64,000 nucleotides of DNA from an uncultured Myxococcales bacterium (lineage in GTDB: Bacteria; Myxococcota_A; UBA9042; DTJE01): the NCBI GenBank assembly GCA_903936705.1, contig CAIZWN010000079.1:62001-126000 (forward strand). Direction: 5' to 3'. Below the pieces are notes generated by a model. That model was not told the origin of the DNA, ran no database searches, and saw nothing but the letters and a program-made list of their open reading frames with translations. Positions 19,543-45,704 of this stretch are shown piece by piece. Made by a program: the position numbers and the translations under genes. Within the stretch, counting starts at the first letter, position 1, and each line of letters begins with the position of its first letter.

Positions 19543-20616
19543 CTAAAAAGATCGACAGCAGCGCGTGCCCAGGTAGTACCCGTCGAGCTGGAGTCCGAAC
19601 TTCTTCCGCGCCGAGGCGCGCATCCATTCGGCCTTGTCGCTGAAAGCTGCCCCGCGAGCCACCCGATACTCGGCCTCAGGAACCAGCCAGGCAGATCCGT
19701 CCACAGGCGCGCCGGTGTAGTCTTCGTGATAGAAGTCCTGCACCCATTCCCAGACGTTTCCGGCCATGTCGGCGGCACCCGATTGGCTGTTGCCGGCCGG
19801 TTTCGAACCGACAGGAAAGACGTTTGCGGTGCCGCATCCGACCCCGGAACCATCATTCGGGTCCATGACGGCAAGATCACAGGTTGGAGTCTCCTCGCCC
19901 CACGGATAGGTGCGCCCGTCGGAACCGACGGCGGCAAGCTCCCACTCGGCCTCGGTGCAAAGTCGCTTGCCTGCCCACCGGCAGAATGACGACGCCTGTT
20001 CCCAGGAGATGCAGTTGATCGGGTGCTGATCCATTCCTGCCAGGCCGTAGGTACACAGGGACGAACTTGCATTCGGCAACGAGCACGCGCCGTCAACGTG
20101 GCACCGCGCCCACAAGCCGGCCGTGACCTCGTTCTGGTCGATCTCGAAGGCAGGCACGGACACTGCGTGAGACGGCTTTTCATCGGTCCCGCAGGCCGCA
20201 GCCGCAGCCCCGGCCCCGCACCCCATCGCGAACGAAGCCGCCGCAACCGGCACCATCGCTCCGCAGTCGGCAGTGCATTGCACTACCTCGGGGGGCACGT
20301 CCAGCGGCAGGTCCGCGGCTGTATCTGATGGCGCGTCCACCAATGGCGGGACGTCAGCGGCGTCAATGGGAAGGTCAACGAACATGTCCGTCGAGGAATC
20401 ACCGGGCACTTCCGTCAGAAAATCAACAGGGGTATCGATCATGAAGTCGCCTGGAGCATCCGCAGGCAAGGTTTCCATGACGTCGTAAACGGAATCGGCT
20501 GGCAGGTCGACCGCATCGATCCCCTGGTCGCCCGACCCTTCTGCCGAGCCGCATGAGAACGACATCGCCGCGGCCAGAACCAGCAAGAATTGGAGCCTAT
20601 GAATACCGGTCGGCAT
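19543..20616 (-). CDS. FGE-sulfatase (SUMF1-like) domain lipoprotein
   Basis: The 357-residue product starts with a lipoprotein signal (MPTGIHRLQFLLVLAAAMSFSC). A long acidic Asp/Pro/Val spacer (about residues 25-125) precedes a formylglycine-generating-enzyme-like domain: VAAASFAMGCG, EIDQNEVTAGLW, HPINCISWEQASSFCRWAGKRLCTEAEWE, ADMAGNVWEWVQDFYH and the C-terminal YYLGTRCCRSF. The region that holds the two catalytic cysteines in true FGE reads EWMRASARKK here, without Cys, so formylglycine formation is unlikely. The ATG at 20616 has AAGGTGG upstream. It lies 103 bases after the truncated transporter gene. Function unknown, probably surface-exposed. Confidence 0.85.
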   Translation of the reverse strand: MPTGIHRLQFLLVLAAAMSFSCGSAEGSGDQGIDAVDLPADSVYDVMETLPADAPGDFMIDTPVDFLTEVPGDSSTDMFVDLPIDAADVPPLVDAPSDTAADLPLDVPPEVVQCTADCGAMVPVAAASFAMGCGAGAAAAACGTDEKPSHAVSVPAFEIDQNEVTAGLWARCHVDGACSLPNASSSLCTYGLAGMDQHPINCISWEQASSFCRWAGKRLCTEAEWELAAVGSDGRTYPWGEETPTCDLAVMDPNDGSGVGCGTANVFPVGSKPAGNSQSGAADMAGNVWEWVQDFYHEDYTGAPVDGSAWLVPEAEYRVARGAAFSDKAEWMRASARKKFGLQLDGYYLGTRCCRSF

Positions 20617-20719
20617 GACTGCCACCTTTTTCGGATATCCCATGTCCGAAAGTGTGCATTCCACGGCATTGGAAGGCAACCAAGTACGGCGCAAGTGGCG
20701 GACAGGGAACGGGGACACC

Positions 20720-21355
20720 CTACTTGTCCAGCGGGTAACTCCGAAATCCCAGGTACCCGATGAACATCAACACCGCAGCGGCGATTGGTGTCGCGAGGAC
20801 ACCCCACGGGATCCCACGACCCATCCTGAAATGCCACTTATCCGAAAAATAGCCGACCATCGGCTCGGCAATCGCTTCCAGCAGGCGGGGGACCAGGCCG
20901 CCCACCGACATCGCGGCGGCACTGACCAGCAGGATCTCGTGGCCCGATGCATCCTTTCGGCCAATGTAGAAGTAGATCAGCCACGAGGAGATCAGAGCCG
21001 GCGACAGCGACACTGCGACCTGCCCAAAGGCATAGGTGAACTTGGCCCAAAACGACAGGACCGGCGTTTCGTCGAGTTCGAAGATGTTTCGCACGCGCTC
21101 GCCAAGAGTCCCGTCAACGGTGGAATCCCCGCACTTCGGACAGACATGACGGCCGGCTTTGGCGCCCATGTCGACACCGCAACGACGGCAGCAAAATGCA
21201 ATCCGCGGGATCGCGAACGCCGCCAGAGGGCCTGCAACGACCGCAAGGGCCAGGAACGGCAGGCTGACGCGGCCCTTCTTCCCGTTTGTAGCCAGCAGTA
21301 CGATGACAGCCGACAGCAGCCAGAGGACCGCCAGAATCCACAACACGATGTCCAT
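20720..21355 (-). CDS. Zinc-ribbon membrane protein ending in a truncated GPH/MFS transporter start
   Basis: The 211-residue protein begins with two hydrophobic helices (DIVLWILAVLWLLSAVIVLL and a second near 25-45). A four-cysteine zinc ribbon (CCRRCG ... CPKCG) follows at about residues 55-80. Next comes what looks like the first two or three helices of a glycoside-pentoside-hexuronide symporter: TYAFGQVAVSLSPALISSW and the signature EPMVGYFSDKWHFRMGRGIPW. The protein then stops at GYLGFRSYPLDK. Full transporters need about twelve helices, and none are found downstream, where the FGE gene starts 103 bases on. It is either a gene remnant or a small regulatory membrane protein. Start choice (21355 or 21379) is uncertain. 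Confidence 0.65.
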   Translation of the reverse strand: MDIVLWILAVLWLLSAVIVLLATNGKKGRVSLPFLALAVVAGPLAAFAIPRIAFCCRRCGVDMGAKAGRHVCPKCGDSTVDGTLGERVRNIFELDETPVLSFWAKFTYAFGQVAVSLSPALISSWLIYFYIGRKDASGHEILLVSAAAMSVGGLVPRLLEAIAEPMVGYFSDKWHFRMGRGIPWGVLATPIAAAVLMFIGYLGFRSYPLDK

Positions 21356-21560
21356 CAACGCTTCTCTCGCAAGCATCAACCGCGGAATCGGGCCAGCCCA
21401 AATACCCAGGAAGGTTCGCCTCCCGTGTCGCCGGGCGACAGTGAGGCGCCTACGGAATAATCACCCAGAGACAAGGTGAGTCGAGAGAATTCGGTGATGC
21501 CGCTTGAAAGCCTGCGCGAACGGCAAGGATTGGCCAGGGCTGGTCCGGGGCCCAGATCAA

Positions 21561-21590: not shown

Positions 21591-21663
21591 CTGTAGGTAA
21601 ATCTTGATTTTTTTGGTGTTGAGAATAGACAGCCGAAAAGCTCAGGCCTCATTTAGGATTACG

Positions 21664-24600
21664 ATGAATTCAATGGCCAGATTTCTCCCGCTTGTCATTG
21701 TCCTTGGCGTCCTTGCATCCTGCGGGCCGGAATCAAGCCCGGTGGTTTCGGAGATAGGCGACGATCTTGCCTTGGACAAACTAGCCGACCCGGCTGACGT
21801 GATGCCTGATACCGTAGATGTCGCCGATCTTTTTGCCGAGTCCATGCCGGACCTCTACGCGCCGGAAACACCCGAGGCCGTGGAAGTCGTTGATGTCACG
21901 GATGTTCATTCGGACGAGGGGCCGACGAACGATGGGCCCGACGAAACGACGCCTCCAGACTGCGTACAGACACCATCAGTCTGCGACGACGACAATGCGT
22001 GCACGGTGGACTCGTGCAATCCGATCCTAGGGTGCGTCAACTCTCCACTGACTGGGACCGGATGCGATGACGCCGATGCATGCACCCTTGGAGACATTTG
22101 CCAGGCCGGTAAATGCGTTGCCGCGGAAACGATTTCCTGCATCGACACCGACCCTTGCACCGACGACCTGTGCGATCCGACGACCGGCTGCTACCACACG
22201 AAGAACCACGAGATCTGCGACGACGGAAACGCCTGCACCAAGGATGACATATGCACCGCAGGCACGTGCTCGGGAACGCCCGTGACGGAACTGTGCAACT
22301 GCAACGACATCCTGGACTGCGTGACGTTGGAGGACGGCAACGCCTGCAACGGCACGCTGGTTTGCCTGAATCATCAGTGTATTGTCGATCCTGCCACGAT
22401 CGTCATCTGTGATACGTCGAAGGACCCGACATGCAAGAGGACCTTCTGCAACGCCGGCACCGGTTTGTGCGGCCAGCATGACGCACCGGACAACAGCGGT
22501 TGCGACGATGCGGATGCCTGCACGACCGGCGACCGTTGCCTGGGCGGCTCGTGCACCGGAGGCCCGCCACCGAACTGCAACGACGGCAACGACTGCACCA
22601 CCGACAGCTGCGCCATCGCGACCGGGTGCTCCAGTCTCGACAACAATGACGTCTGCCTGGCGGCCGAGTGCGTGAGCAACGTCTACTATGCAGCAGCCAC
22701 CTGCGCGACAGGAACGTGCCCCGTACAGGAGGTCACCGACTGCGCCAGCAACAAGGCATGCGTTACGGACTCCTGCGATGCTGCGACCGGTTGCTCTCAC
22801 GTCGTGAAGCCCAACTACTGCCTGATTGACGGCGCATGCGTCCTGGAGGGGGCCACCTTCCCGACCGATCCCTGCCGGGTCTGCACGGCTTTGATTTCCT
22901 TCAGCGACTGGACTGTCGCCGGGGACGGGTCCTCGTGTGGCGCCGGACGCGCGTGCCTTGACGGCAGATGCCTGGGCCCGCTGATCACCGAGTTCATGGC
23001 CGTCAATCGCGACACCACCAAGGACGAAGATGGTGACACCAGCGACTGGATCGAGATCTACAACCCCGCAGGCGTGCCGCTGTCGTTGCTGGGCTACCAC
23101 CTGACGGACGACAAGGCCAGGCCGGGCAAGTGGATTTTCCCGGACGTATCGATCCCTCCCAACGCCTACCTCGTAGTATTCGCCTCCGGCAAGAACCGCA
23201 TGGACCCGGCTGGCGTATTGCACACGAACTTCAAGCTGGGATCCGAGGGCGAGTATCTGGCGTTGTCCAGTCCCAACTATCTGGTGGTCCAGGAGTTCCC
23301 GATCTTCCCTGCGCAAGCCCCTGACGTTTCGTACGGCATCGCTGTTTCGGTCGCCAGAGCCCCGTTCGTGACAACGGGTAACTCGGCACGCTATTTCGTG
23401 GCCCTTGGTGCCAACCCGCCCTTTGACTGGGCCGGTTCGGCTTTCGATGACACCGGGACCGGCTGGGAAACCGGCTTGACCGGGATAGGCTTCGACTTTC
23501 CATCCCAATACCAGCCGCCCGCATCCGGCGACGCACTTGGTACGCCGATTGCTGATTCGGTGGCAGACTGGTCCACGACCGGCATCCAGGGCGCAAACGG
23601 CTGGACCTACGGGTATTACGACCGGACCAACGACCCGGACCACGTGTACTCGGCCGACGCCTTCATCCCGTTCCCTCACGACGGCAGCGGCTTCGGCCCT
23701 ACCGACTTCTGGACAGGATCGTCCTATGAATGGTTCCAGGGCGATCCTCCGTGGACAGCCATAGGCAGCGAGTCCGTCCACCCGAACGGCGAGAACAACA
23801 TCAGCGAGCACTGGGTGATCCGGCGATACACAACCGAGATCGCAGGTCCGCTGGTCGTGGAATGGCATATCGGGCGCAACAACCTGAACGGCGATGGCGT
23901 CACGGGTTACGTCTTCCACCAGGGAACGCTTGTGGACTCGATTGCAATTGCCGGAAGCGACTCGGTGGGCGCCACGCGCCTGCTGGTATTGCCCGAAGTC
24001 ATGATTGGCGACACGATTGATTTCGCCCTGGGTCCCACGGGTCCCGGCGGCCAGCCCGAGGATTGGTCAGACGGGTCGGTTTTGACCTCTGCCGTCTGGC
24101 CCATGCCCAACCTTGAAAGCCAGATCGCAACGAGCGTCGATGCAACCATGTTCGGGGTGACGCCCGGCATGTACGTCAGGATCGCCTTTGACAACGAGTC
24201 GCCGGTGCCTCTGAACCGGCTGTGGCTGCGCATGAAGTACAACGACGGCTTCCTGGCATATCTGAACGGGTCTGCCATCGCGTCCGCCAATGCACCGGAG
24301 ATACCCACGTGGAATGCAACGGCCACGGCGAACCGCTCGGTCGCCGCGGCACAGGAATTCGAAATCTTCGACGCCCGCAGCAACATCAACCTCCTGGCGG
24401 CTGGCCGGAACACGCTGGCCATCCACGGTTTCAACGTAGCCGCGGACAGCCCCACGTTCCTGGTGCTGCCGGAACTGGAGGGGCGCCTGGTCACCTATGA
24501 TGCAGCGTCGGTCCGCTATTACAGCAAGCCCACGCCAGGTGCGGACAACGATGATGCCACTGGTACGCTCGGCCCCATAATGGAGCACCTGACCCCGGCC

Positions 24601-26361
24601 GGCAGCGCGGCGTCGGGCCAGGAGATAGTAGTTTCGACAAGAGCCTTCCCGACCAGCGCCGAGGTTGCCGGCGCCGTCCTGATCTACCGGGTGATGTTCG
24701 GCCCAGAAGTGTCAGTTCCCATGACAGACGCCGGCAACGGCATTTTCAGCGCAGCGATTCCTGCCGATGTCGCCGCACCCGGCCAGATGGTTCGCTGGTA
24801 CATCCTGGGCAGCGACGTGAACGGCCAGACAGGCCGGACACCGATCTTCCCCGACCCGCTGGATTCGGAACAGTACTTCGGCACCATCATCGATGACCCA
24901 ACGATAGTCAGCAACCTGCCCGTAATTCATTGGTTCATCGAGAACCCGGCAGCCGCCAACACGCGGACAGGTACGCGCAGCTCGCTCTTCTTCGCTGGCG
25001 AGTTCTACGACAACGTGAAATTCAACCTGCATGGCCAGAGCACCTCGGGCTCGTCATTCCCGAAGAAAAGCTACAACGTTGACTTCAACTCCGACCACCG
25101 GTTCCGCCTTTCTACGGACTTTAGACGCATGAAGGACATCAAGCTGCTGACCAACTATGCCGACAAGTCCAAGCTGCGAAACACCCTGGGGTACGAGACC
25201 TTCAGGAACGCGGGATCTGCCTATCACCTTGCGTTCCCGATACGAGTCCAGCGCAATGGCACGTTCTTCTCGGTCCAGGACTTTGTGGAGGACGCGGACG
25301 ACCGCTGGCTGGAACGACTGGGACTGGATCCCGAAAACGCGTTGTACAAGCAGTACGACGGTCTGTACAACGCGGCCCTTGGCGAGAAGAAGACCCGCGA
25401 GTACGAGGACAATTCGGACCTCGCGTCATTCATCGCCAATCTTGACCTGACCGGGGATGCCCTGCGCAATTTCATCTACGACAACGTGAACTTGGCGGCC
25501 ATGGCGAACTTCTATGCTGGACTGACAATCACGTCGGACAAGGATTGCTGCCACAAGAATTTCTATGCATACCGCGACACCAACGGGACCGGCGAGTGGT
25601 GGTACCTGCCCTGGGATCTGGACCTGACGTTCGGCCGCAACTGGATCCAGTCGGTCAACTACTTCGACGATAACCTATACCCGCAGAACCGGCTGTTCGG
25701 CGGGGGCGGCAACAAGCTGACCTCGATCCTGTATGCGATGCCCGAGTTCAGTCAGATGTACGTGCGGCGACTGCGCACGTTGATGGACCAACTGCAGCAG
25801 CCTCCCGAAACGCCCCAGGCTGACCTGAAATTCGAGAAGCGCATCGACGAACTGGTGACGTTGATCGGCGCCGACGGCGCGGCCGACTATGCGGCCTGGC
25901 CCAAGTGGGGCCTGGACCAGACAATGGAGCAGGCCGCCGGATTGATGAAGACGAACTACATGGCGCCTCGAAGGGTTTTCCTCTTCGAGACGAAGACTGC
26001 AGACGGAACCATCCCTTCGGCACAGGAACATCCCATCATCCTCTTCGGCGAATTTGATCTCTCGCCCGAACGCCCCGACGAGGCCTATTTCACTCTTGAT
26101 AACCAGAACGCCTTTGCCGTGGACCTTTCGGGCTGGCAGGTATCGGGCGACATTTCCATCACGCTGAAGCCGGGTACGGTTATTCCAGCCTTGGGCACGC
26201 TGGTTGTGTCCCCCGACGTCGTCACCTTCCGCAAACGGGCTCTTCCTCCGACTGGCGGGCAAGGGCTGTTCGTGCAGGGCAACTACGTAGGCGTGATCAG
26301 CCAGTTCGAATCCCTTACCCTGCTGGACGATGCCGGGAACACTGTATCGTGGGCATTGTAA
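21664..26361 (+). CDS. Large lipoprotein: Cys-rich repeats, lamin-tail domain, CotH kinase-like domain
   Basis: The 1565-residue protein starts MNSMARFLPLVIVLGVLASC, a clear lipobox (LASC), followed by an acidic Asp/Pro spacer. Residues about 80-430 hold cysteine-rich repeats of the type CDDxNACTxDxC...GC. A lamin-tail domain (ITEFMAVNRD, SDWIEIYNP, LGYHLTDD, IPPNAYLVVFAS) begins near 440. A middle region of beta-rich type follows. A CotH-like atypical kinase domain spans about 1115-1420, with FPKKSYNVDFN, MKDIKLLTNYADKSKLRN, VQDFVEDADDRW and the metal-binding-type WDLDLTFGRN near 1315. A second lamin-tail-like fold (VDLSGWQVSGD, VIPALGTLVVSPD) ends the protein. The start has AGGA upstream. 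The gene ends base to base with mfd on the other strand. Kinase activity is not shown; spore-coat-type CotH proteins elsewhere phosphorylate proteins. Confidence 0.85.
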   Translation: MNSMARFLPLVIVLGVLASCGPESSPVVSEIGDDLALDKLADPADVMPDTVDVADLFAESMPDLYAPETPEAVEVVDVTDVHSDEGPTNDGPDETTPPDCVQTPSVCDDDNACTVDSCNPILGCVNSPLTGTGCDDADACTLGDICQAGKCVAAETISCIDTDPCTDDLCDPTTGCYHTKNHEICDDGNACTKDDICTAGTCSGTPVTELCNCNDILDCVTLEDGNACNGTLVCLNHQCIVDPATIVICDTSKDPTCKRTFCNAGTGLCGQHDAPDNSGCDDADACTTGDRCLGGSCTGGPPPNCNDGNDCTTDSCAIATGCSSLDNNDVCLAAECVSNVYYAAATCATGTCPVQEVTDCASNKACVTDSCDAATGCSHVVKPNYCLIDGACVLEGATFPTDPCRVCTALISFSDWTVAGDGSSCGAGRACLDGRCLGPLITEFMAVNRDTTKDEDGDTSDWIEIYNPAGVPLSLLGYHLTDDKARPGKWIFPDVSIPPNAYLVVFASGKNRMDPAGVLHTNFKLGSEGEYLALSSPNYLVVQEFPIFPAQAPDVSYGIAVSVARAPFVTTGNSARYFVALGANPPFDWAGSAFDDTGTGWETGLTGIGFDFPSQYQPPASGDALGTPIADSVADWSTTGIQGANGWTYGYYDRTNDPDHVYSADAFIPFPHDGSGFGPTDFWTGSSYEWFQGDPPWTAIGSESVHPNGENNISEHWVIRRYTTEIAGPLVVEWHIGRNNLNGDGVTGYVFHQGTLVDSIAIAGSDSVGATRLLVLPEVMIGDTIDFALGPTGPGGQPEDWSDGSVLTSAVWPMPNLESQIATSVDATMFGVTPGMYVRIAFDNESPVPLNRLWLRMKYNDGFLAYLNGSAIASANAPEIPTWNATATANRSVAAAQEFEIFDARSNINLLAAGRNTLAIHGFNVAADSPTFLVLPELEGRLVTYDAASVRYYSKPTPGADNDDATGTLGPIMEHLTPAGSAASGQEIVVSTRAFPTSAEVAGAVLIYRVMFGPEVSVPMTDAGNGIFSAAIPADVAAPGQMVRWYILGSDVNGQTGRTPIFPDPLDSEQYFGTIIDDPTIVSNLPVIHWFIENPAAANTRTGTRSSLFFAGEFYDNVKFNLHGQSTSGSSFPKKSYNVDFNSDHRFRLSTDFRRMKDIKLLTNYADKSKLRNTLGYETFRNAGSAYHLAFPIRVQRNGTFFSVQDFVEDADDRWLERLGLDPENALYKQYDGLYNAALGEKKTREYEDNSDLASFIANLDLTGDALRNFIYDNVNLAAMANFYAGLTITSDKDCCHKNFYAYRDTNGTGEWWYLPWDLDLTFGRNWIQSVNYFDDNLYPQNRLFGGGGNKLTSILYAMPEFSQMYVRRLRTLMDQLQQPPETPQADLKFEKRIDELVTLIGADGAADYAAWPKWGLDQTMEQAAGLMKTNYMAPRRVFLFETKTADGTIPSAQEHPIILFGEFDLSPERPDEAYFTLDNQNAFAVDLSGWQVSGDISITLKPGTVIPALGTLVVSPDVVTFRKRALPPTGGQGLFVQGNYVGVISQFESLTLLDDAGNTVSWAL

Positions 26362-34948: not shown

Positions 34949-37900
34949 TCATGGCATGGGCTTCAGACAGCGGGCCCCGAGGAGCGCGAAGCGGCTGCCC
35001 GGCGAGACGCGGTCGCGATCCGACGACCGCATGCGCGACGCGTCGCCGTCGAAACCGCCGCCACGGAGAACGCGGTAGACGCCGGTGGGCGAAACCCACG
35101 CGCTGCCATCCATGGGCGCTCCGGTGTAATTTGGGTGGTACCAATCCTCGACCCACTCATACACGTTTCCTGCCATATCCAACGCCCCGCTCCAGGACAC
35201 GCCAGCCGTCTTTGACCCTTCAGCAAGAGTCCCTCCTGAACTGCACCCATACCCTGCCGTCGTTCCGGCCTCGTTGAAGACCGCAGTAGTATTCGCGCAC
35301 GTCGGCGCAGGAGTATCTCCCCATGGGTACTTCCGGTGCGTCGGACCAGTCGCCGCGTATTCCCACTCAGCCTCGGACGGCCGACGGCCACCCAGCCACG
35401 TGCATACCGCTCCCGCCTGGGCCCATGTCAGCCCATTCTGAGGATGAGTCGAACGGCCATTAGCCGAGGTGTTCGTCCCCTGCGTCATAGGGAAGCCATC
35501 CGCACTTGGTGGCGTACAAGTCCCGGGCAACGCCGCCTGGCAAGCTTCGTACTGAAGGACGGTCACCTCGTACTTCCCCATCAGGTAACCGGACGCGAAC
35601 GTCACCGAATGATTTGGGTCCTCTTCGGTGCTACGTGGAGATTCGGTCGATGGCGATCCCATCGTGAACGAACCCGCCGGAACGTGGACCCACACATCCC
35701 ACTGCTTCCAGCCAGTGGTATCAACGTTCGCGTATTCGCAATGTTCCTGGGAATTGCACGTGGCAATGTAGCCAGACACGGTCGGGCAGGCGATGCCGCC
35801 GCATGTTGACCTCGAAGTACGCAGCCCCAGGTGGTACATGCGGGCGCCCGAGATGAAGCGGAGGCCACGGTCGGCAGCCCGGATGCGCCCGGCGCTTCCG
35901 GACCAGCCCCCGCCACGAAGCACCGGGCCCGAGCCCGACGTGGCGCCCGTTGGATCCGTCACCGTCCCTGGATACGTCCCGTACAAATCCCCAGTCCACT
36001 CCCAAACGTTCCCTAGCATGTCGTACAGACCCCACGCGTTCGGCGTCTTGCCCTTAACTGCCTGAGTCTTACTGGCAGAGTTCCCATAGAACCAGGCAAT
36101 CGTGTCAAGGACCGTGTTTGGCTGTTCGTATCCAATCAACGTACTTGTCCCGTTGTATGTCCCGGTCGTCGTCCCTGCCCTCGCTGCATACTCCCACTCC
36201 GATTCCGTTGGCAGGCGGTAGCCCGTGCAGGTGAGTCCCGCAAACGTTACCCCGGTACAGGTGTATCCCGACACCCCGGGAGTTCCCGTGCACCCTGTTA
36301 ACGTGTAGCACTGCGTCAACCCCTGGTTTGACGACAGTTGGTTGCAGTACGCTATTGAGTCCCACCAGGACACCTTTTCAACCGGGCAGTCGCTCCCGCA
36401 TGTCGAGAAGGACGACGGGTTGTTACCCATCAATGCCTGCCATTCACCCTGCGTTACCTCTGTCGCCTTCAGGCAGAATGACTTGGAGATCGTTACCTGA
36501 TGCTCGGTCTCATCGGCGTAACGCCCTGGTTCCGTTGTCGGAGACCCCATCGTAAACATCCCGGACGGAACTAAAACGTATCCATCGGGGCATCCGCCAA
36601 TTCCATTGCACGCACCTGCCGTGCACCCGTACTGGCACGTCTGCGCCAAGGCCCCCATGTTCCCGCAACTGTTGTACCAATAAACGCTCCCGCCTGAACA
36701 TGCCTTGTGGTCGTTCGCGTTGCAGCACGTACCAGAAACGCACCCGCCGCCGGTGCCACAGGATGTGCCATCGGTCGCGTTGCTCCATGCGGTCGAACCA
36801 TTGGTCGTCGTGCATACCTTGCACGCGTCCGTCCCGTTCGCGGCGCCCTCTGCATAACATGTCCCGGCAATCAGGCAATTCCCTGACTGCAACGCACTGC
36901 TGCATCCCGTCGCCGCCGCGCAGGCGTCGGTGGTGCAGGCTCTTCCGTCATTGCACGACGATACCGCGCCGCCCAACGTGCACTGTCCGCCAGCGCAGGT
37001 CAGAGGCGCCTTCCAATCCAAGCCGTTGCAGGAAGCGGCCATACACTGACCGCCGTCCGCGATGCTGCTCCACGCGTCCGTGCCGCTTGCGGTAACGCAG
37101 TTCTGGCATGTGTTGACCGGGTTGGGCTGGGCCTCGCCATAACATGTCCCGCCGATCAGGCAATAGCTGTCCTGCAATGCGTTCGCGCAACCCCCCGCGC
37201 TGCACGAGTCGGTCGTGCAAGCCTTGCTGTCGTCGCACGACGAAACCGCACCGCCCACGGTGCATTGCCCAGATGAGCATGTGCGTGGTGCCGTCCAGTT
37301 CAATGCCGTGCAGGACGCAGCCTGGCATTGCGTCCCGTCTGTCACGCTGCCCCACGTGGTCGTGCCCTGTGCCGTCTTGCACGCCTGGCATGCATTTCCG
37401 ACGTTGATCGTGCCTTCGGCATAGCACGTCCCTCCGATCAGGCAGTTTCCCGACTGTATCGTCGCGCTGCATCCAGTCACCGCCGCGCACGCATCGGTCG
37501 TGCACGTCTTGCCGTCGTCGCACGACTGTACCGCACCGCCTGCCGTGCACTGACCAGAGAAGCACGTCTTCGCGGCAATCCACGTCATGCCCGCGCATGT
37601 GCTTGACTGGCATTGCGCCCCGTCGTCGCGATTGCTGTAAGCCGTGACGCTCTTCGAAGGAATACACGCCTGGCAGGCGTTGCCGAGGTTCGCGGTGCCC
37701 TCGGCAATGCAGGCACCTCCGATCACACAAAATCCGACGATCACGCCGTTACTGCAGCTTCCGGTAGCGGGATTGCACATGTCGGTCGTGCACGCTAGGC
37801 CGTCGTTACATCTTAACGGATAGGAACATCCACCTGTAAGGGGATTGCACGTGTCGGTTGTACAGAGGTCGCCGTCACCGCACTTCACGGAATGGACGCA

Positions 37901-40900
37901 CCCACCTGAGTAATGGTTACACGAATCGGTTGTACAGGGGTCGCCGTCGTCACAGCCGTTTACGCTATGTAGGCAATCGCCGGACACGATGTCACACCAA
38001 TCATTCGTACATTGGTTCCCGTCGTCGCAGGACTGGGGCTCGTTTCGACAACCGGATCCTGAACTGCATGCATCCGAGGTACACGCTTTCCCGTCATCGC
38101 ACGACTGCGTCCCGCCGCCTACCGAGCATGCCCCTGTCAGGCACGACTTCGCTGACGTGAACTGCAGCAGGTTGCACGTACCGGCGCCACATGCGGTCCC
38201 GTCCGTCGCGTTGCTCCACTCGGAAGTGCTGGGCGTCGATGCGCACACCTTGCACGCGTTGACCGGGTTCAACTGGCCCTCGGCCCAGCACGTCCCGGCG
38301 ATCAGGCACTGCCCGGCCTGCAGCACGTTACCGCACCCCTTTACCGCGTCGCACGTGTCGTTGGTGCACGCCTTCCCGTCGTCGCAGCCAGTGGTCGCTC
38401 CACCCGTCGTACACAGCCCCGACTGGCACATCTTGGCGGCAGACCACGTCAGCCCTGCACATGCACTGGCCAGACACTGGATCCCGTTCGCCAGGGGACT
38501 CCAGGACGACGTACTCGTGGCCACGGTGCACGCCTCGCAGGCGTTGCCTGGGTTCAAAGCGCCCCCGGCACGGCAGATCCCTCCGATCAGGCAGTTCCCC
38601 GCCTGAAGGGTGTTGCTGCAACCGGTCGCCGCGCCACACGCATCCGTCGTGCACGTCTTCGCGTCGTCGCACGATGACGTCCCGCCGCCACCCGTGCACT
38701 GCCCGGCCGCGCACGTCCTGGGCGTCGTCCACGTCAGTCCCGTGCAAGACCCCGCCAGACACTGTGTCCCGTCGGTCACGCTGCTCCACGCCGACGCGCT
38801 GCGCGTCGCATCGCATACCTGGCACGCGTTGGATGGATTCGGCTGCCCGTTTGCCCAACACGTCCCGTCGATCAGGCAGTTCCCCGCCGCCAGCGTATTG
38901 CTGCAGCCTCCCGAGGCGCTGCACGCGTCCGCCGTACATCCCTTCCCGTCGTCGCACGATGCAATCCCGCCGCCCACCGTGCATTGCGCGGCCGAACACG
39001 ACCGCGGCGCCGTCCACGTCAGCCCCGCACACGATCCTGCCGCGCACTGCGTACCGTTCGACAGGCCCGTCCACGACGTTGTCGCGCTGGACGGAGTGCA
39101 CACGTTGCACGCGTTCGACGGGTTCAACTGCCCCGACGCATAGCATGTCCCCGACACCAGGCAGAAGCCCGCCGAAAGCGTGCTGGTGCACCCCGTCGTC
39201 GCATCGCACACGTCCGCCGTGCACTCCTTTCCATCGTCGCAGTTGCTGGTGACCAGACTGCCGCACTGCCCTGTTTGGCAGGTCCTGGCATGCGACCACA
39301 CCAGCCCGTCGCAGGACGACGCAACGCACGTCACGCCGTCGGTCAGATTGCTCCAGCCCAGGGTCGCCCGCGCGATGTCGCATTTCTGGCAGCCGTTCGT
39401 CGGGTGCATCTGGCCGTTCGTCCGGCACGTCCCGTCGATCAGGCAGTTGCCAGCCACCAGCGCGTTCCCGCAACCCGTCGCAGCCGTGCAGGTGTCAGCC
39501 GTGCAGGTCTTGCCGTCGTCGCAGTTCGATAGCGCGCCGCCCCCGGTGCACTGCCCCGTAACGCATGTCCTTGCCGCGTTCCACGAAAGCCCGGTGCAGG
39601 TACTTGCCAGACACACCGTCCCGTCACCGGCGTTCGACCACGACGTCGTGCTGGTACCAGGCGTGCAGACCAGGCATGGGTTGGTCGGGTTCGCCTGCGC
39701 CTCGGCAAAGCACTGCCCGTCGATGAGGCATGTCGCGGCCTTCAACGCCGTGCTGCACCCCGCCGCCACGTCGCACACGTCCGTCGTGCACGTCTTGCCG
39801 TCGTCGCACGACTGCAGCGCGCCGCCTCCCGAACACTGCCCCGACGCGCACGTCCGGGGCCTGGTCCACGAAAGTCCCACACAGGCCCCGGCAAGGCACT
39901 GAGTACCATCGTCCCGCCACGACCATGCCGTTGCGCTGGATCCCGTCTGGCACAACTGGCACGCGTTGCCGGGATTCGCCTGCGCCTGGGCATAGCACGT
40001 TCCCGAAATCAGGCACTGCCCCGCCTGCAGCACGTTGCTGCATCCGGTTGCCGATGCGCATGCATCCGTGGTGCACGCCTTGCCGTCATCGCACGACTGC
40101 GTAGCACCGCCAGCAGTGCACTGCCCGGTCACGCACGTCTTCTGGGTCGTGAATGTCAGGCCAGTGCATGACGACGACGCACACTGCGTCGCGTCCGCCA
40201 CGTTCGTCCACGCCAAGGTTCCCTGCGCCGATGTGCATGCCTGGCACACGTTCGCAGGGTTTGCCTGCCCGTCCGCAAAACACGTTGCCCCGATCAGACA
40301 ACGCTGCGCCTGCAGCGTGTTCCCACACCCCGCGACCGGATCGCACGAATCGGTCGTGCAGGTCCTGCCGTCGTCGCACGACCGCACGGCACCACCAGCG
40401 GTGCACTGCCCCGAAACGCAGGTTCTGGACGCCGTCCACGACAAACCGGTACACGTCCCCGCAGCGCACTGCGCCCCGTCTTCGCGAGTCGTCCACGCCG
40501 TCGTGCTGCTGGCAGTCACGCACGCCTGGCATCCGTTGCCCGGGTTCGCCTGCCCTTCCCCGTAACACACCCCGCCGATCAGGCACTGCCCCTGCTTCAG
40601 GACGTTGCCGCACCCCGTGCCAACTGCGCAGGTGTCCGTCGTACAAGTCTTGCCGTCATCGCACGACTGCAAGGTACCGCCGACACTGCACGACCCGTAA
40701 AGGCAGGTCATGCTGGATGTGAAGTCCAGTGCCGAACACGACGACGCAACGCACTGCGTCCCGTCCGCGATGCTGGTCCAAGAGGACGTCGCCTTTGCGA
40801 CGTCGCACAACTGGCACGCGCTGGCAGGATTCGTCTGGCCCACGCCAACGCACACCCCGTCGATAAGGCAGTTCCCCGCCACAAGCGAGTTGCCGCACCC

Positions 40901-43900
40901 GGTCGCAGCACTGCACGCATCCGTCGTGCACGCCTTCCCGTCGTCACAGTTCCGGCTGCCGCCCCCTCCGGTGCACTCACCCCCCACGCACGACTGCGCA
41001 GACGTGAAGACCTTGCCAGCGCAGTTCCCGGATCCGCACACCGTCCCGTCCAGCACATCCGTCCAGGCCAGTGCGTCCACAACCGGAGCGCACACATGGC
41101 ACGCGTTCCCGATGCTGGCCTCGCCGGCAACCAAGCATGTCCCGCCGATCAGACAGTTTCCCGCCTGCACCAGATTGCTGCACCCCGTGGCCGGGACGCA
41201 CGCGTCGGTCGTGCACGCCTTCGAGTCCTCGCATGAAACCGGCGTCCCCGCAGCCCCGCACCAGCCGGACTCGCACGTCCGCCGCGGCGTCCACTGCAGT
41301 CCCGCGCACCCACTGGCCACGCACTCGGTCCCGTCAACCGCGTCCTTCCAGGCGCCCGGGCTGCCCACGGCGTCGCAAGTCTGGCAGGGATTTTCAGGGT
41401 TCTTGGCATGGTCCGCGTAACACGCCCCGTCGATCCGGCAGGACCCGGCCTGAAGGACGTTGCTGCACCCCGTGGCGTTACTGCACGCGTCAGCCGTGCA
41501 CGACAACCCGTCGTCACACCCCTGCAGTTCGCCTCCACCGGCGCACTGCCCGACGTCGCACGTCCGCGGCCTGGTCCACTCCATGCCCAGGCACGAAGGC
41601 GCCCCGCAAGGCGTGCCGGGAACCGCGTCCGTCCAGCCCGTCGCCGACACCGTCGCCGCACACGATCGGCACACGCTGGACGGGTCAGCCTGGCCATCCG
41701 TCGCACAGTCTCCACCAATCGCGCAGTACCCGGTCTCGACTTCGTGGCCGCACCCCGTTGTCGCGGAACACTCGTCCTGCGTGCAGGAAACCCCGTCATC
41801 GCACCACTCGGTCTGCCCACCACCGGAGCATGTCCCGGATTCGCACGTTTTTGCAGCCGTCCACGTGGTCACCGCACACGACCCCGACACGCACACAGTC
41901 TTGTTGGCCACCGCCGTCCAGGCCGTCGCATCGAAGGTCGATGCACACGCCTCGCATGGATTCGCGGGATTCAACCCGTTGTCATCCCAGCATGCCCCGG
42001 CGATCAGGCACATTCCGGCCGCAACCTGGTGCCCGCACCCGGTTTCCTCGTCGCACGAGTCGGCCGTGCACTCGATACCGTCATCGCATGGCTGTACCTG
42101 GCCGTCGCCCGTACAGGCGCCCGACACGCACGACCGGGGCGTCGTCCACACCAGCTCGGCGCACGACCCGGACAGGCACCACGCGCCGTCCTCGGCGTCA
42201 CTCCACGCCGACGAACTTTCCGATGCGCGACACACCTGACAAGGGTCTGCTGGATCCGCCTGACCCGCATCGAAACACGCTCCGGCGATCAGGCAGGCCC
42301 CCTGCTGCAGCACGCTGCCACACCCAGTCGTGGCATCGCACGTGTCCGTGGTGCACGACTTCCCGTCGTCGCACCCCTGCACCTGCCCGCCATCCCGGCA
42401 CTGCCCCCCGGCACACGTCTTTTTCGCCCGCCACGTCAGCCCCTCGCAGGCGCTGGCCAGGCACTCCGCCCCGTCCTTGGCGGTGCTCCACGTCGTAACG
42501 CCATTGCCGGGGGTGCACACCTCGCATCCGTTCGCAGGGTTGGCCTGGTCGGTCGCAAAACACTGGCCGGCGATCAGGCAGAAGCCAGGCTTCAGAACGC
42601 TGCTGCACCCCGTGAATGCATTACACGCGTCGGTCGTGCACGAAAGCCCGTCGTCGCAGTTCCCAGCCGCCCCAGCCGGGCACACTCCCGACAGGCATTC
42701 CCTGCCTTCCGTCCAGGAAAGCCCGGCACACGACGGCATCTTGCAAACGGTCCCGTCATCCAGTTCGGACCACTCCTGCGTGCCGCGCATGATGTCGCAC
42801 ACCTTGCACGCGTTCAGCGGATTCGGCTGGCCGTCGTACCGACACACCCCGCCTATCAGGCAATAGCCGTCCTGCAGCGCACTGGAACAGCCCCCGTCCG
42901 GATTGCATCCGTCGATCGTGCATGCCCGCGCATCGTCGCAGTTCTGGGTGGCTCCGCCCCCGGTGCACGTGCCCTGCAGGCAGGTCTCGGGCTGGGTCCA
43001 CCAGGATCCGACGCACGACCCGCTGGCGCACCGCACGCCGTCCCCAAGCACCGTCCAGGCCACGTCGCTGGCCAGCGGGTTGCACGCCTCGCACGCGTTC
43101 AAGGGATTCGTGTTCCAGTCCGACCGGCACACCCCAAGGATCAGGCACTTGCCTGGCAACACCGGGTTCATGCACCCGACTGACGGCTCGCACTCGTCGG
43201 CCGTGCAGGAAATCCCGTCGTCGCAGTCCTGCATCCCGCCGCCCGCCGTGCACTGCCCCGAAACGCAGGTCTTGCCCTGCTTCCACACTCCTTCCGTGCA
43301 CGTAGAAGGGTCGCACACGACCCCGTCAGTGGCAGCGCTCCACACGGTAGGACCAGCAACGTGCGAACACACCTGGCACGCATTGCCCGGGTCCGGCTGG
43401 CCTTCGCCACGGCACTCGCCCCCGACAAGACACCACCCCTCCAGCACCTCGTGCTGGCACCCCTTGGCCGCACTGCAAGTGTCGGACGTGCACTCCAGCC
43501 TGTCGTCGCACGACCGGCTGGTGCTGGCACCAGTGCACTCACCCGAATCGCAACTCTTCGCTGTCGTGTAAACCTCGCCCTGACACGACCCTGGTCCGCA
43601 GGGGTCTCCGTCTTCGCGGACGGTCCACAACTCCTTGTTCAGTTCTGTCCGGCACCACTCGCACAGTCTCGACGGGTTTTCATCGCCCTCGCCACGACAC
43701 GTTCCGTCGATCAGGCAGAAGGCGGGCTGCAGCGGATTCGTACAGCCACCAATGCCGTCGCACACGTCATCGGTGCACGCCTGCCCGTCCGAACACGAGA
43801 AGGACGTTCCCTTGCAACCGGCGTCACCGGTTCCACCCGCCGCGCACGAGTCGTTCTTTGTGCAGGCGTCCTGGTCGTCGCACAGCTTGCCCACGACGTA

Positions 43901-44392
43901 CGTCCAGACAACAGTGGCCTTTGTCGGATCGCAGGTCAGGCACTTGCCCTGGTTCGCCCCCGACGCCACGCACGACCCGTTGATCAGGCACCAATCGGCC
44001 TGCAGAACATGCGTGCACCCGGTCAACCCGCAAACATCGGTAGTGCACGGAATCTGGTCATCGCATTCCGAAACATCCCAGCACGTCCGTGGAACGTCCC
44101 CCTTGTCCACGTCGAACGCCGACACGTCGGAAAAGCAGGTCAAACAGATCTCGCTGTCCATGCGTGCGTCGGCACAGGCCCCGCAAACGTCCTCGTCGTC
44201 GTTCGCGTCGAACCGATCGAGGTCATCCACATCGAACGGATCCGGGATATCGAGGTCTGCCGCGTCTGCCCCGTCCACCGCGACCTCGTCCCCGGTATCG
44301 CGCGCAACATCAGGAGCTGCAGGCATTGTGGGTATGGTCCAGCACCCGGCAATCGCCGTCGCCAGAACCATCACCAGTAAAACGGTTCGCAT
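34949..44392 (-). CDS. Giant lipoprotein: ~25 tandem 12-Cys repeats plus two FGE-like domains
   Basis: The 3147-residue protein begins MRTVLLVMVLATAIAGC, a textbook lipobox (IAGC), then an acidic Asp-rich spacer to about residue 105. Residues about 110-2550 are tandem units of about 95 residues, each with twelve cysteines, pattern CDDGKxCTTDxC..TGC..xLxxGxCLIxGxC, then NPxNxCxxC, W, DGTxC, C.GLxW, TC..GQC. The first units are more diverged than the middle ones. A short-unit cassette interrupts the array near 37780-38060. Two FGE-sulfatase-like domains follow, about 2600-2865 (VPSGMFTMGSP, RLPTESEWEYAAR, YDMLGNVWEWTGD) and 2900-3147 (VPAGSFTMGSP, RRPSEAEWEYAA, LDMAGNVYEWVEDWYH). Neither has the catalytic Cys pair. 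ATG 44413 is an alternative start. It directly follows the PEGA gene. Function unknown; most likely an extracellular disulfide-rich rod bearing binding domains. Confidence 0.88.
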   Translation of the reverse strand: MRTVLLVMVLATAIAGCWTIPTMPAAPDVARDTGDEVAVDGADAADLDIPDPFDVDDLDRFDANDDEDVCGACADARMDSEICLTCFSDVSAFDVDKGDVPRTCWDVSECDDQIPCTTDVCGLTGCTHVLQADWCLINGSCVASGANQGKCLTCDPTKATVVWTYVVGKLCDDQDACTKNDSCAAGGTGDAGCKGTSFSCSDGQACTDDVCDGIGGCTNPLQPAFCLIDGTCRGEGDENPSRLCEWCRTELNKELWTVREDGDPCGPGSCQGEVYTTAKSCDSGECTGASTSRSCDDRLECTSDTCSAAKGCQHEVLEGWCLVGGECRGEGQPDPGNACQVCSHVAGPTVWSAATDGVVCDPSTCTEGVWKQGKTCVSGQCTAGGGMQDCDDGISCTADECEPSVGCMNPVLPGKCLILGVCRSDWNTNPLNACEACNPLASDVAWTVLGDGVRCASGSCVGSWWTQPETCLQGTCTGGGATQNCDDARACTIDGCNPDGGCSSALQDGYCLIGGVCRYDGQPNPLNACKVCDIMRGTQEWSELDDGTVCKMPSCAGLSWTEGRECLSGVCPAGAAGNCDDGLSCTTDACNAFTGCSSVLKPGFCLIAGQCFATDQANPANGCEVCTPGNGVTTWSTAKDGAECLASACEGLTWRAKKTCAGGQCRDGGQVQGCDDGKSCTTDTCDATTGCGSVLQQGACLIAGACFDAGQADPADPCQVCRASESSSAWSDAEDGAWCLSGSCAELVWTTPRSCVSGACTGDGQVQPCDDGIECTADSCDEETGCGHQVAAGMCLIAGACWDDNGLNPANPCEACASTFDATAWTAVANKTVCVSGSCAVTTWTAAKTCESGTCSGGGQTEWCDDGVSCTQDECSATTGCGHEVETGYCAIGGDCATDGQADPSSVCRSCAATVSATGWTDAVPGTPCGAPSCLGMEWTRPRTCDVGQCAGGGELQGCDDGLSCTADACSNATGCSNVLQAGSCRIDGACYADHAKNPENPCQTCDAVGSPGAWKDAVDGTECVASGCAGLQWTPRRTCESGWCGAAGTPVSCEDSKACTTDACVPATGCSNLVQAGNCLIGGTCLVAGEASIGNACHVCAPVVDALAWTDVLDGTVCGSGNCAGKVFTSAQSCVGGECTGGGGSRNCDDGKACTTDACSAATGCGNSLVAGNCLIDGVCVGVGQTNPASACQLCDVAKATSSWTSIADGTQCVASSCSALDFTSSMTCLYGSCSVGGTLQSCDDGKTCTTDTCAVGTGCGNVLKQGQCLIGGVCYGEGQANPGNGCQACVTASSTTAWTTREDGAQCAAGTCTGLSWTASRTCVSGQCTAGGAVRSCDDGRTCTTDSCDPVAGCGNTLQAQRCLIGATCFADGQANPANVCQACTSAQGTLAWTNVADATQCASSSCTGLTFTTQKTCVTGQCTAGGATQSCDDGKACTTDACASATGCSNVLQAGQCLISGTCYAQAQANPGNACQLCQTGSSATAWSWRDDGTQCLAGACVGLSWTRPRTCASGQCSGGGALQSCDDGKTCTTDVCDVAAGCSTALKAATCLIDGQCFAEAQANPTNPCLVCTPGTSTTSWSNAGDGTVCLASTCTGLSWNAARTCVTGQCTGGGALSNCDDGKTCTADTCTAATGCGNALVAGNCLIDGTCRTNGQMHPTNGCQKCDIARATLGWSNLTDGVTCVASSCDGLVWSHARTCQTGQCGSLVTSNCDDGKECTADVCDATTGCTSTLSAGFCLVSGTCYASGQLNPSNACNVCTPSSATTSWTGLSNGTQCAAGSCAGLTWTAPRSCSAAQCTVGGGIASCDDGKGCTADACSASGGCSNTLAAGNCLIDGTCWANGQPNPSNACQVCDATRSASAWSSVTDGTQCLAGSCTGLTWTTPRTCAAGQCTGGGGTSSCDDAKTCTTDACGAATGCSNTLQAGNCLIGGICRAGGALNPGNACEACTVATSTSSWSPLANGIQCLASACAGLTWSAAKMCQSGLCTTGGATTGCDDGKACTNDTCDAVKGCGNVLQAGQCLIAGTCWAEGQLNPVNACKVCASTPSTSEWSNATDGTACGAGTCNLLQFTSAKSCLTGACSVGGGTQSCDDGKACTSDACSSGSGCRNEPQSCDDGNQCTNDWCDIVSGDCLHSVNGCDDGDPCTTDSCNHYSGGCVHSVKCGDGDLCTTDTCNPLTGGCSYPLRCNDGLACTTDMCNPATGSCSNGVIVGFCVIGGACIAEGTANLGNACQACIPSKSVTAYSNRDDGAQCQSSTCAGMTWIAAKTCFSGQCTAGGAVQSCDDGKTCTTDACAAVTGCSATIQSGNCLIGGTCYAEGTINVGNACQACKTAQGTTTWGSVTDGTQCQAASCTALNWTAPRTCSSGQCTVGGAVSSCDDSKACTTDSCSAGGCANALQDSYCLIGGTCYGEAQPNPVNTCQNCVTASGTDAWSSIADGGQCMAASCNGLDWKAPLTCAGGQCTLGGAVSSCNDGRACTTDACAAATGCSSALQSGNCLIAGTCYAEGAANGTDACKVCTTTNGSTAWSNATDGTSCGTGGGCVSGTCCNANDHKACSGGSVYWYNSCGNMGALAQTCQYGCTAGACNGIGGCPDGYVLVPSGMFTMGSPTTEPGRYADETEHQVTISKSFCLKATEVTQGEWQALMGNNPSSFSTCGSDCPVEKVSWWDSIAYCNQLSSNQGLTQCYTLTGCTGTPGVSGYTCTGVTFAGLTCTGYRLPTESEWEYAARAGTTTGTYNGTSTLIGYEQPNTVLDTIAWFYGNSASKTQAVKGKTPNAWGLYDMLGNVWEWTGDLYGTYPGTVTDPTGATSGSGPVLRGGGWSGSAGRIRAADRGLRFISGARMYHLGLRTSRSTCGGIACPTVSGYIATCNSQEHCEYANVDTTGWKQWDVWVHVPAGSFTMGSPSTESPRSTEEDPNHSVTFASGYLMGKYEVTVLQYEACQAALPGTCTPPSADGFPMTQGTNTSANGRSTHPQNGLTWAQAGAVCTWLGGRRPSEAEWEYAATGPTHRKYPWGDTPAPTCANTTAVFNEAGTTAGYGCSSGGTLAEGSKTAGVSWSGALDMAGNVYEWVEDWYHPNYTGAPMDGSAWVSPTGVYRVLRGGGFDGDASRMRSSDRDRVSPGSRFALLGARCLKPMP
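36735..44065 (-). repeat. Tandem 285-base coding repeat array (~25 units)
   Basis: Within the giant lipoprotein gene, units of about 285 bases (95 codons) follow head to tail. Aligning the protein at each CDDG gives about 25 long units plus one composite of short units. Units in the middle and toward the 3' half are closest to one another, suggesting recent duplication or gene conversion. Copy number may vary between strains and assemblies. Confidence 0.85.
37780..38060 (-). repeat. Short-unit cassette inside the repeat array
   Basis: Here the 95-residue unit is replaced by four or five short units of about 25 residues (CDDGNQCTNDWCD, CDDGDPCTTDSCN, CGDGDLCTTDTCN, CNDGLACTTDMCN). The DNA looks less GC-rich than the flanking units. 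The short type resembles the repeats in the CotH/lamin-tail lipoprotein at 21664-26361. Confidence 0.6.
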
Positions 44393-44417
44393 TCTCAATC
44401 CGCTCGTGCCCATGCTT

Positions 44418-45704
44418 CTACCACCGCACCAGCGCCGACAACCCGGCCCCGCCGGGACCACCCGGTGCCACCGTGACCTTGGACTCGGGAAGGAAGTACA
44501 GCACCAGCCCCGACGCAAGAGCGGCGCCCCCCAGGGTCAGGCACGTCAACGCCGCAATGCGCTTGGTCGTGGCGCTGTCCCACCAGGGTTGTACGTTCTT
44601 GCGGTATTCATCCTGGACGCTGGCAGAGTTCGGGTCCAGTCTGTCATAGGCGCTGGACATCTGTTTGAAGTCCCGGTAGGCCAGCCCGTACGACACTGAA
44701 CCCGCCGCCACAAGTGCAATCCCGACGCCCATGGCACTCCACGCTCCGATCCGCCTTGGGGACATGCCTCGCTTGGCGGCCACCGTCTGAACGGGTGGCG
44801 GCACTTCGATGGCGACCGGTATCAGATCGGCACGCACCAACAGCGTCTGCCCCACGGCCAGCGTGACTTCCTGGTCCAGCGGCTTGTGCCCCGCGGCCTC
44901 GGCGCGAACCAGATGCGACCCGGCCTTGGTGCGAACCTCCTGCGGAGCAATACCCGCAAAAAGGCCGTCCACAAACACCGAAGCATCCTTCGTCCGGCTT
45001 TCAACCCGCAGCACTGTCTGCGTCGGCACCAACACCAGGGCAACCGACACCGGAGCCCCCTGCGCGACCACGACCGAGGACTGCGCAGGCTGGTACCCGG
45101 CGGCCTCGGCCAGAACTATGTGGCTGCCCGGAGTGACCCAGGCAGCATGCAGCAGCAACGTATCCGGAGCCTTCCGATCAAGGTATATCCGGGCGTCCGC
45201 AGGCGTCGAAGTGACCTCCAGTTTGCCCAGCGTCCTGCCCAGGACCGCGTCCAGTTTCTGCAGCAGATCGCGGGCCTCACCGCGTTCCTTGTCGTTACGA
45301 GCCACGGTCAGGTACCGGACCGCCCACGGGTACGCACGGGCAGGGTCCTGGACCGCATCCGTCAGGACCGTGGCGATGTTGTACAGGTAGGACGGATTCG
45401 GGTTCAGGGCATACGCACGCTGGAACCCGTCGACGGTCTCGACGTACCTGCCAGCCTGCGCGTCCTTCACCGCCTGCGCCGCCAGGGCCTTGCCCTCGGC
45501 CACCGCACCAACCGAGTCCTGGGCACTTGCAAACAAGGGCGCAAGAATGAACGTCAACGCGGCAAGCGCGGCAAGGCACCCCCGCAACAGCACCTTCGGC
45601 GCCGCGTCCCAGTGGCCATCCAGCTGCGCCGTGGAAGCATCGCAACAACAGCGCGTGACGTCGCCGTCGAACTTGCAACCACGGGTTGCGCTGATTCGAA
45701 CCAT
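44418..45704 (-). CDS. TPR/PEGA-domain membrane protein
   Basis: The 428-residue protein has a hydrophobic export segment (LAALAALTFILAPLFASAQ) after an unusually long, Cys-containing N-region. A TPR-like segment follows (AQAGRYVETVDGFQRAYALNPNPSYLYNIATVL). Two PEGA domains come next, near residues 160-225 (GKLEVTSTPADARIYLD) and 230-295 (LRVESRTKDASVFVDG, AGSHLVRAEAAGHKPL). Two transmembrane helices (IGAWSAMGVGIALVAAGSVSYG and IAALTCLTLGGAALASGLVLYF) end the protein. PEGA domains are cell-surface beta modules common in myxobacteria. GGAGG lies 11 bases before the ATG. The stop is 25 bases before the giant lipoprotein start, so the pair is probably one operon. Confidence 0.82.
   Translation of the reverse strand: MVRISATRGCKFDGDVTRCCCDASTAQLDGHWDAAPKVLLRGCLAALAALTFILAPLFASAQDSVGAVAEGKALAAQAVKDAQAGRYVETVDGFQRAYALNPNPSYLYNIATVLTDAVQDPARAYPWAVRYLTVARNDKERGEARDLLQKLDAVLGRTLGKLEVTSTPADARIYLDRKAPDTLLLHAAWVTPGSHIVLAEAAGYQPAQSSVVVAQGAPVSVALVLVPTQTVLRVESRTKDASVFVDGLFAGIAPQEVRTKAGSHLVRAEAAGHKPLDQEVTLAVGQTLLVRADLIPVAIEVPPPVQTVAAKRGMSPRRIGAWSAMGVGIALVAAGSVSYGLAYRDFKQMSSAYDRLDPNSASVQDEYRKNVQPWWDSATTKRIAALTCLTLGGAALASGLVLYFLPESKVTVAPGGPGGAGLSALVRW

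Follow-up and report, generated by a model that had tools for sequence, protein, structure and literature searches.

CotH, a kinase of the Bacillus spore coat, phosphorylates CotB and CotG. Its solved structure (5jd9, 5jda) is a 359-residue chain without a lamin-tail domain (LTD) or stalk. According to the passages of each source that concern CotH, dockerin-borne CotH is present in cellulosomes, as in the Clostridium thermocellum protein Cthe_0239 with the order LTD-LTD-Fn3-CotH (PMC6083626), Streptococcus intermedius shows less Pel and less aggregation once its secreted CotH protein SIR_1594 is deleted (PMC12345266), and some CotH proteins act as GRP78 receptors in Rhizopus infection (PMC9973265).

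The window, as the whole stretch of DNA analysed here is called, comprises 64,000 nucleotides from an uncultured Myxococcales bacterium, and its positions 21664-26361 (+ strand) encode a 1565-residue CotH lipoprotein that shares features with each of these systems. The fold and the D-x4-N and PWDxD motifs are those of Bacillus CotH, which has Tyr142 where the window protein has Lys1229. Like the secreted Cthe_0239, the protein, itself predicted to be exported, combines LTD, beta-sandwich and CotH domains, whereas Cthe_0239 is anchored by a dockerin, with no Cys-rich array or lipobox listed in the relevant passages of PMC6083626. The CotH domain, the signal peptide and, by prediction, the extracellular location of Mucorales CotH proteins are likewise shared, but those proteins are not lipoproteins, a GPI anchor is predicted in only some of them, and LTDs and Cys-rich arrays go unmentioned in the sections of PMC9973265 that describe them. 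SIR_1594 adjoins a polyphosphate polymerase and a four-TM protein (as set out in part of PMC12345266), just as the window protein's relative in genome G008 has VTC and DUF4956 neighbours; SIR_1594 is tied to Pel, whereas the arrangement here lies away from PelG and in some cases includes HlyD-/OEP-type exporter genes. CotH itself, LTD joined to CotH (Cthe_0239) and secreted CotH are already in print; new here are the lipoprotein with a Cys-rich stalk, the repeated origin of that stalk, the altered pocket and the association with VTC away from Pel loci. In the open-licence literature, no paper was found on a stalked CotH lipoprotein, its origins, its pocket change or its VTC tie, nor on an exported CotH that uses polyphosphate.

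Architecture of the lipoprotein

The surrounding open reading frame (21604-26361) begins with TTG, and the lipoprotein start, MNSMARFLPLVIVLGVLASC followed by G, is given by the inner ATG at 21664. The signal peptide looks like a Sec signal, the lipobox LASC was recognized both by eye and by a simple lipobox pattern, and the G008 relative opens alike (MARFLP..LLSC). A location of the CotH domain outside the membrane is predicted from the lipobox. The order of parts is lipobox, acidic linker, Cys-rich array, LTD, beta-domains, CotH and second LTD, as follows:

21664..21723, + strand: signal peptide and lipobox LAS/C20, Gly at +2, no twin arginine (read in the sequence)
21724..21957, + strand: acidic linker of 78 residues, of which 22 are Asp/Glu and 1 is Lys/Arg (residue count)
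21961..22971, + strand: Cys-rich array of CDDxNACTxDxC-type units (Pfam Dicty_CTDC and Cys count)
22972..23343, + strand: first lamin-tail domain, with approximate outer limits (aa 453-530 in Pfam)
23344..24561, + strand: beta-rich region, tentatively delimited and tentatively read as two jelly-roll-like parts (pLDDT of the model 65)
24562..24855, + strand: Ig-like beta-sandwich (Z 11.4 and rmsd 2.8 over 94 residues against the Ig-like part of PPAD)
24910..26022, + strand: CotH kinase domain (Pfam, alignment, modelled fold)
25345..25350, + strand: Y1228-K1229, with K1229 aligned to the adenine-stacking Tyr142 of B. cereus CotH (sequence alignment)
25543..25545, + strand: catalytic Asp D1294 (alignment to CotH)
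25558..25560, + strand: Asn N1299 of the D-x4-N motif (alignment to CotH)
25612..25623, + strand: W1317-D1318-L-D1320 metal/adenine motif (alignment to CotH)
26029..26358, + strand: second, C-terminal lamin-tail domain (modelled fold match; sub-threshold LTD profile score)

An NCBIfam search of the protein returned no match, and the assignments were made with Pfam and modelled folds. Seven units of the Cys-rich array fit a simple pattern and four stretches pass Dicty_CTDC (PF00526; 1.3e-13, 50.9 bits against a gathering score of 27); 50 Cys fall within 354 residues (aa 99-452), beyond chance, versus 3 in the other 1211 residues. The LTD profile (PF00932) matches over its gathering score in two stretches (3.7e-15); taken singly, LTD1 scores 40.5 bits and LTD2 25.6 bits, above and below the cut-off of 34.3, respectively, and the modelled LTD2 matches the Ig fold of lamin A/C with Z 10.1 (rmsd 3.0, 94 residues). 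Between LTD1 and CotH, the middle region was modelled poorly (pLDDT 65.2); its fold search gave a clear match only for the last 98 residues, to the Ig-like part of PPAD, while the jelly-roll region matched CBM61/CBM4 at Z 8.5, near the background of that search. The CotH profile (PF08757) matches aa 1122-1430 with 8.4e-24 and 85.1 bits against a gathering score of 23.8. An AlphaFold2 model of the C-terminal 526 residues, built from 16 aligned rows (pLDDT 85.5, pTM 0.86), placed this domain on B. cereus CotH 5jd9 with Z 34.4 and rmsd 2.6 Å over 336 residues, the next-best kinases reaching Z of about 11.5. The earlier note had described Cys-rich repeats, lamin-tail folds and a CotH kinase-like domain lying between the two lamin-tail folds, all in a single lipoprotein, and each of these parts is borne out by the Pfam matches, the lipobox and the modelled folds.

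Two ORFs on the opposite strand precede the gene: an FGE-sulfatase protein (19543-20718, -) whose hydrophobic start is followed by a Cys and whose acidic linker resembles the one in the CotH protein, and a 219-residue ORF (20720-21379, -) that matches only the first 87 MFS_2 positions and looks truncated.

Relatives and origins of the stalk

CotH was found in 41 of the 52 genomes of the relatives search, with 185 matches. Relatives of the last 565 residues of the window protein were recovered at E < 1e-20 in five of these 52 genomes, its own included, at identities of 74% (G008), 62% (G007), 52% (G015) and 44% (G024), paralogs standing at 40-42%. An ortholog was absent from both same-genus genomes in the search with these 565 residues, so the window gene is an accessory one. 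CotH is the best-kept part of the protein between the window and G008 (79.9% identity versus 48.7-72.2% elsewhere). A search of a genome collection returned seven named loci, one titled Anaeromyxobacter and six from Verrucomicrobia at 40-49%. The G015 ortholog (L051:5677-10281, -) is split by one in-frame TGA, for which sequencing error, decay or recoding are possible explanations.

In a tree of 119 domains, the window protein falls within a 13-row clade of LTD-CotH proteins that includes six Verrucomicrobiota rows; with regard to horizontal transfer, these six form a grouping of their own at a support of only 89. Of the members of this clade, the window protein and its G008 relative show the Cys-rich array; the G015 and G024 relatives have an acidic stretch without the array, a G007 paralog bears PASTA and PA14 domains, and L043, a row from Verrucomicrobia, bears five LTD stretches and a LamG domain. 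Ten more Cys-rich CotH proteins (family f6) lie elsewhere in the tree, and Dicty_CTDC was matched in all six of those scanned. When the 12 Cys-rich CotH rows, a group named after the first tree had been inspected, were constrained to one clade, the single origin was rejected (p-AU 0.000645). The Cys-rich stalk and CotH were accordingly combined on two or more occasions.

In the window's genome such arrays are common, with at least 147 repeat matches (150 of 404 candidates scored), and its repeat was found in none of 14 control genomes. A 3189-residue ORF in the window (34949-44518, -) has two FGE-sulfatase and nine Dicty_CTDC stretches, and so pairs a further enzyme-like domain with a Cys-rich array of this type. 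Two CotH proteins of more than 2000 residues near the window's relatives (L042:11433-17591 and L054:2-6946) carry Cys-rich units after CotH and have Glu/Asp at the catalytic Asp/Asn positions.

Active site and nucleotide pocket

The likely metal motif WDLDLTF named by the earlier note is present at aa 1317-1323, aligned with PWDYDATWGR of B. cereus CotH. Residues D1294, N1299 and D1318 are the equivalents of PKA D166, N171 and D184, and W1317 is the kept equivalent of Trp245 of B. cereus CotH. In B. subtilis CotH, D228Q and D251A are described as inactive in the pertinent part of PMC7821199, and a passage of PMC12189002 gives Tyr142 as the adenine-stacking residue of the B. cereus enzyme. The aromatic pair Tyr142/Trp245 is incomplete in the window protein, which keeps the Trp but has K1229 at the Tyr142 position, and for this reason it is classed from the alignment as a CotH-family protein and not as a Bacillus-type ATP kinase. 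The earlier note had taken loss of the ATP-binding residues as the point that would count against a kinase; D1294, N1299, D1318 and W1317 are kept, whereas the Tyr142 equivalent is Lys1229, which makes the outcome of this check a mixed one.

The same positions were compared across 125 distinct CotH domains, most of them from genomes of the window's class, with six from Verrucomicrobia loci and two from CotH genes neighbouring those loci. The catalytic Asp is kept in 112/123 and the Asn in 113/123 domains (both in 107/122), and these two columns rank second and third in conservation within the domain, which is what selection on an active site would be expected to produce. At the metal position, 78/123 domains have Asp and 39/123 have Gly, with no Gly in the window clade, and the equivalent of Trp245 is kept in 95/123. 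All five residues (D, N, W, D and D) are present in 14 of 14 window-clade rows, one row being a fragment. The Tyr142 column is occupied by Lys (49), Glu (48) or Arg (10) in 107 of 124 domains, the preceding residue being Tyr or Phe in 116 of 124, whereas a CotH of Alicyclobacillus dauci without an evident signal peptide has Tyr at this position and His before it. The CotH domains of the set appear to share a changed nucleotide pocket, a comparison made in sequence register only and with two proteins of the spore-coat type. Export signals were recognized in many of the 125 CotH ORFs, 69 by a crude lipobox pattern, which also matches within the Cys-rich regions of L112 and L119 and overlooks some rows that are lipoprotein-like by eye, and 12 more as Sec-like.

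The reading preferred here, at a probability of about 0.55, is that the protein is exported as a lipoprotein, probably to the outer membrane, and that its CotH domain works as a phosphotransferase with targets in the envelope or matrix. A stalk would be built from the acidic linker and the disulfide-rich array, the kinase would be brought to its target in the envelope or matrix by the LTD, jelly-roll and Ig-like domains, and CotH would then move phosphate to Ser/Thr of surface proteins or to a glycan. Since the Sec-like signal implies that the domain should fold after export, the donor must be outside the cytoplasm, and may be ATP that cells release or a compound connected with the VTC-DUF4956 module. 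ATP is released by bacteria during growth and is present in cultures, as the relevant part of PMC3882102 reports. The worry of the earlier note over extracellular ATP supply is a fair one. Its proposal that the protein phosphorylates surface proteins is favoured by the CotH fold and by the kept D, N and metal Asp and weakened by Lys1229 at the Tyr142 position, with ATP as one possible donor. With K/E/R at this column in 107/124 domains, ATP binding need not match the Bacillus mode, and the changed position argues against assuming it.

A possible, though not favoured, alternative is that the CotH fold serves for adhesion or as a scaffold, a role proposed for the CotH invasins of fungi, and that no phosphate transfer is involved. 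The many adhesion-type beta domains, the LTDs and the stalk would suit such a role, as would the charged Tyr142 equivalent, the lack of assured ATP outside the cell and the GRP78-receptor CotH proteins of Rhizopus infection (in the portion of PMC9973265 on these proteins). Conservation of the catalytic Asp and Asn to this degree, and of D, N, W and D in 14/14 clade rows, over divergent and in many cases exported proteins, argues against pure binding, the second function that the earlier note had allowed for.

Genomic tie to VTC and DUF4956

In G008, a same-strand series runs through VTC, DUF4956, HlyD-type, OEP, PPDK_N lipoprotein and small lipoprotein genes to the window's relative and a second CotH gene. 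The only VTC of the window's genome is on contig C5 with DUF4956, HlyD-type and OEP genes, two other CotH genes and an LTD lipoprotein gene; the window CotH gene itself has no VTC nearby in its own genome, and its neighbours were not conserved in a comparison with 16 loci of relatives. CotH is present in 34 of 35 genomes with VTC versus 7 of 17 without it (Fisher p 1.1e-5; 52 genomes), a statistic that, like the other VTC-CotH counts, treats related genomes as independent. DUF4956 lies within 6 kb at 36 of 39 VTC places, and CotH within 15 kb at 14 of 39 versus 0.93 expected, or at 9 of 39 without five weak neighbours (E 5e-8 to 1.2e-4; G043, G036, G051, G017 and G025), a clustering count made with incomplete CotH lists for G027 and G035. 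Four hydrophobic segments were counted in each of two DUF4956 proteins and none in two VTC proteins.

Parts of this association have precedents in the relevant passages of earlier reports. The Streptococcus Pel locus holds the trio of secreted CotH, polyphosphate polymerase and four-TM protein, which its authors did not find outside the Pel locus in the part of PMC12345266 concerned; CotH, the polymerase and DUF4956 stand beside Pel genes in Gram-positives (PMC7112168); and a CotH gene of Clostridium perfringens is near VTC-domain genes (PMC2879425). PelG is on the same contig at one of the 39 VTC places (G019:C11) and, by contig numbers, is missing from the contig at the other 38, so that, as far as can be judged from the contigs, the VTC-DUF4956-CotH places are apart from PelG. 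At G019:C11, VTC and DUF4956 adjoin PelG in a genome without CotH.

PPDK_N genes, which are common, stand beside two relatives of the window gene, in G008 (L049:6728-9646, +) and G024 (L052:11887-15099, -); both products have lipoprotein-type starts, which is odd for this cytosolic-type domain (dikinase AMP/ATP-binding). The HlyD-type protein between the DUF4956 and OEP genes at L056:3950-6229 (+) has a weak C-terminal match to a phytase-like propeller (7.9e-6, under the cut-off).

Fam20B phosphorylates xylose, and CotH might similarly phosphorylate a matrix polysaccharide held by the jelly-roll domains. The CBM61/CBM4 match, relatives with PA14 or LamG domains, the Pel neighbours in Gram-positives (PMC7112168, in part) and dockerin-borne CotH in cellulosomes (PMC6083626, in part) speak for a glycan kinase, but the CBM-type match is near the search background on a weak model (pLDDT 65), PelG is missing from the contig at 38 of 39 VTC places, and this reading is held to be unlikely. 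That the protein is an ordinary shuffled ectodomain for which selection has kept no role in the window lineage, encoded by an accessory gene heading for loss, is hardly credible: both same-genus genomes lack the gene and the G015 ortholog is interrupted, but in the window the reading frame runs uninterrupted through 1565 codons and its CotH is 79.9% identical to that of G008.

The preferred reading of a working phosphotransferase leaves a choice of donor. In the yeast VTC complex, polyphosphate is made on the cytosolic side and moved across the membrane, as stated in the pertinent section of PMC10657179. As a long shot, the exported CotH lipoproteins of the class may draw on polyphosphate, or on some donor other than cytosolic ATP: VTC would make polyphosphate in the cytosol, DUF4956, with its four membrane segments, would pass it out, in some cases with HlyD-/OEP-type exporters, and surface CotH, with its adenine-stacking Tyr replaced by Lys, Glu or Arg, would transfer phosphate to envelope or matrix targets. 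Such a donor would be in keeping with both the genomic tie and the altered pocket, but the window gene itself is outside such a cluster.

To our knowledge, no extracellular protein-phosphorylation system is established in bacteria, and a polyphosphate donor, if true, would solve the supply problem of such phosphorylation. The window's class as a whole has CotH kinases, many of them lipoproteins, with kept catalytic residues, a nucleotide pocket that is seemingly altered and a genomic link to a polyphosphate polymerase, which makes the question of the phosphate donor outside the cell directly testable in one purified protein.
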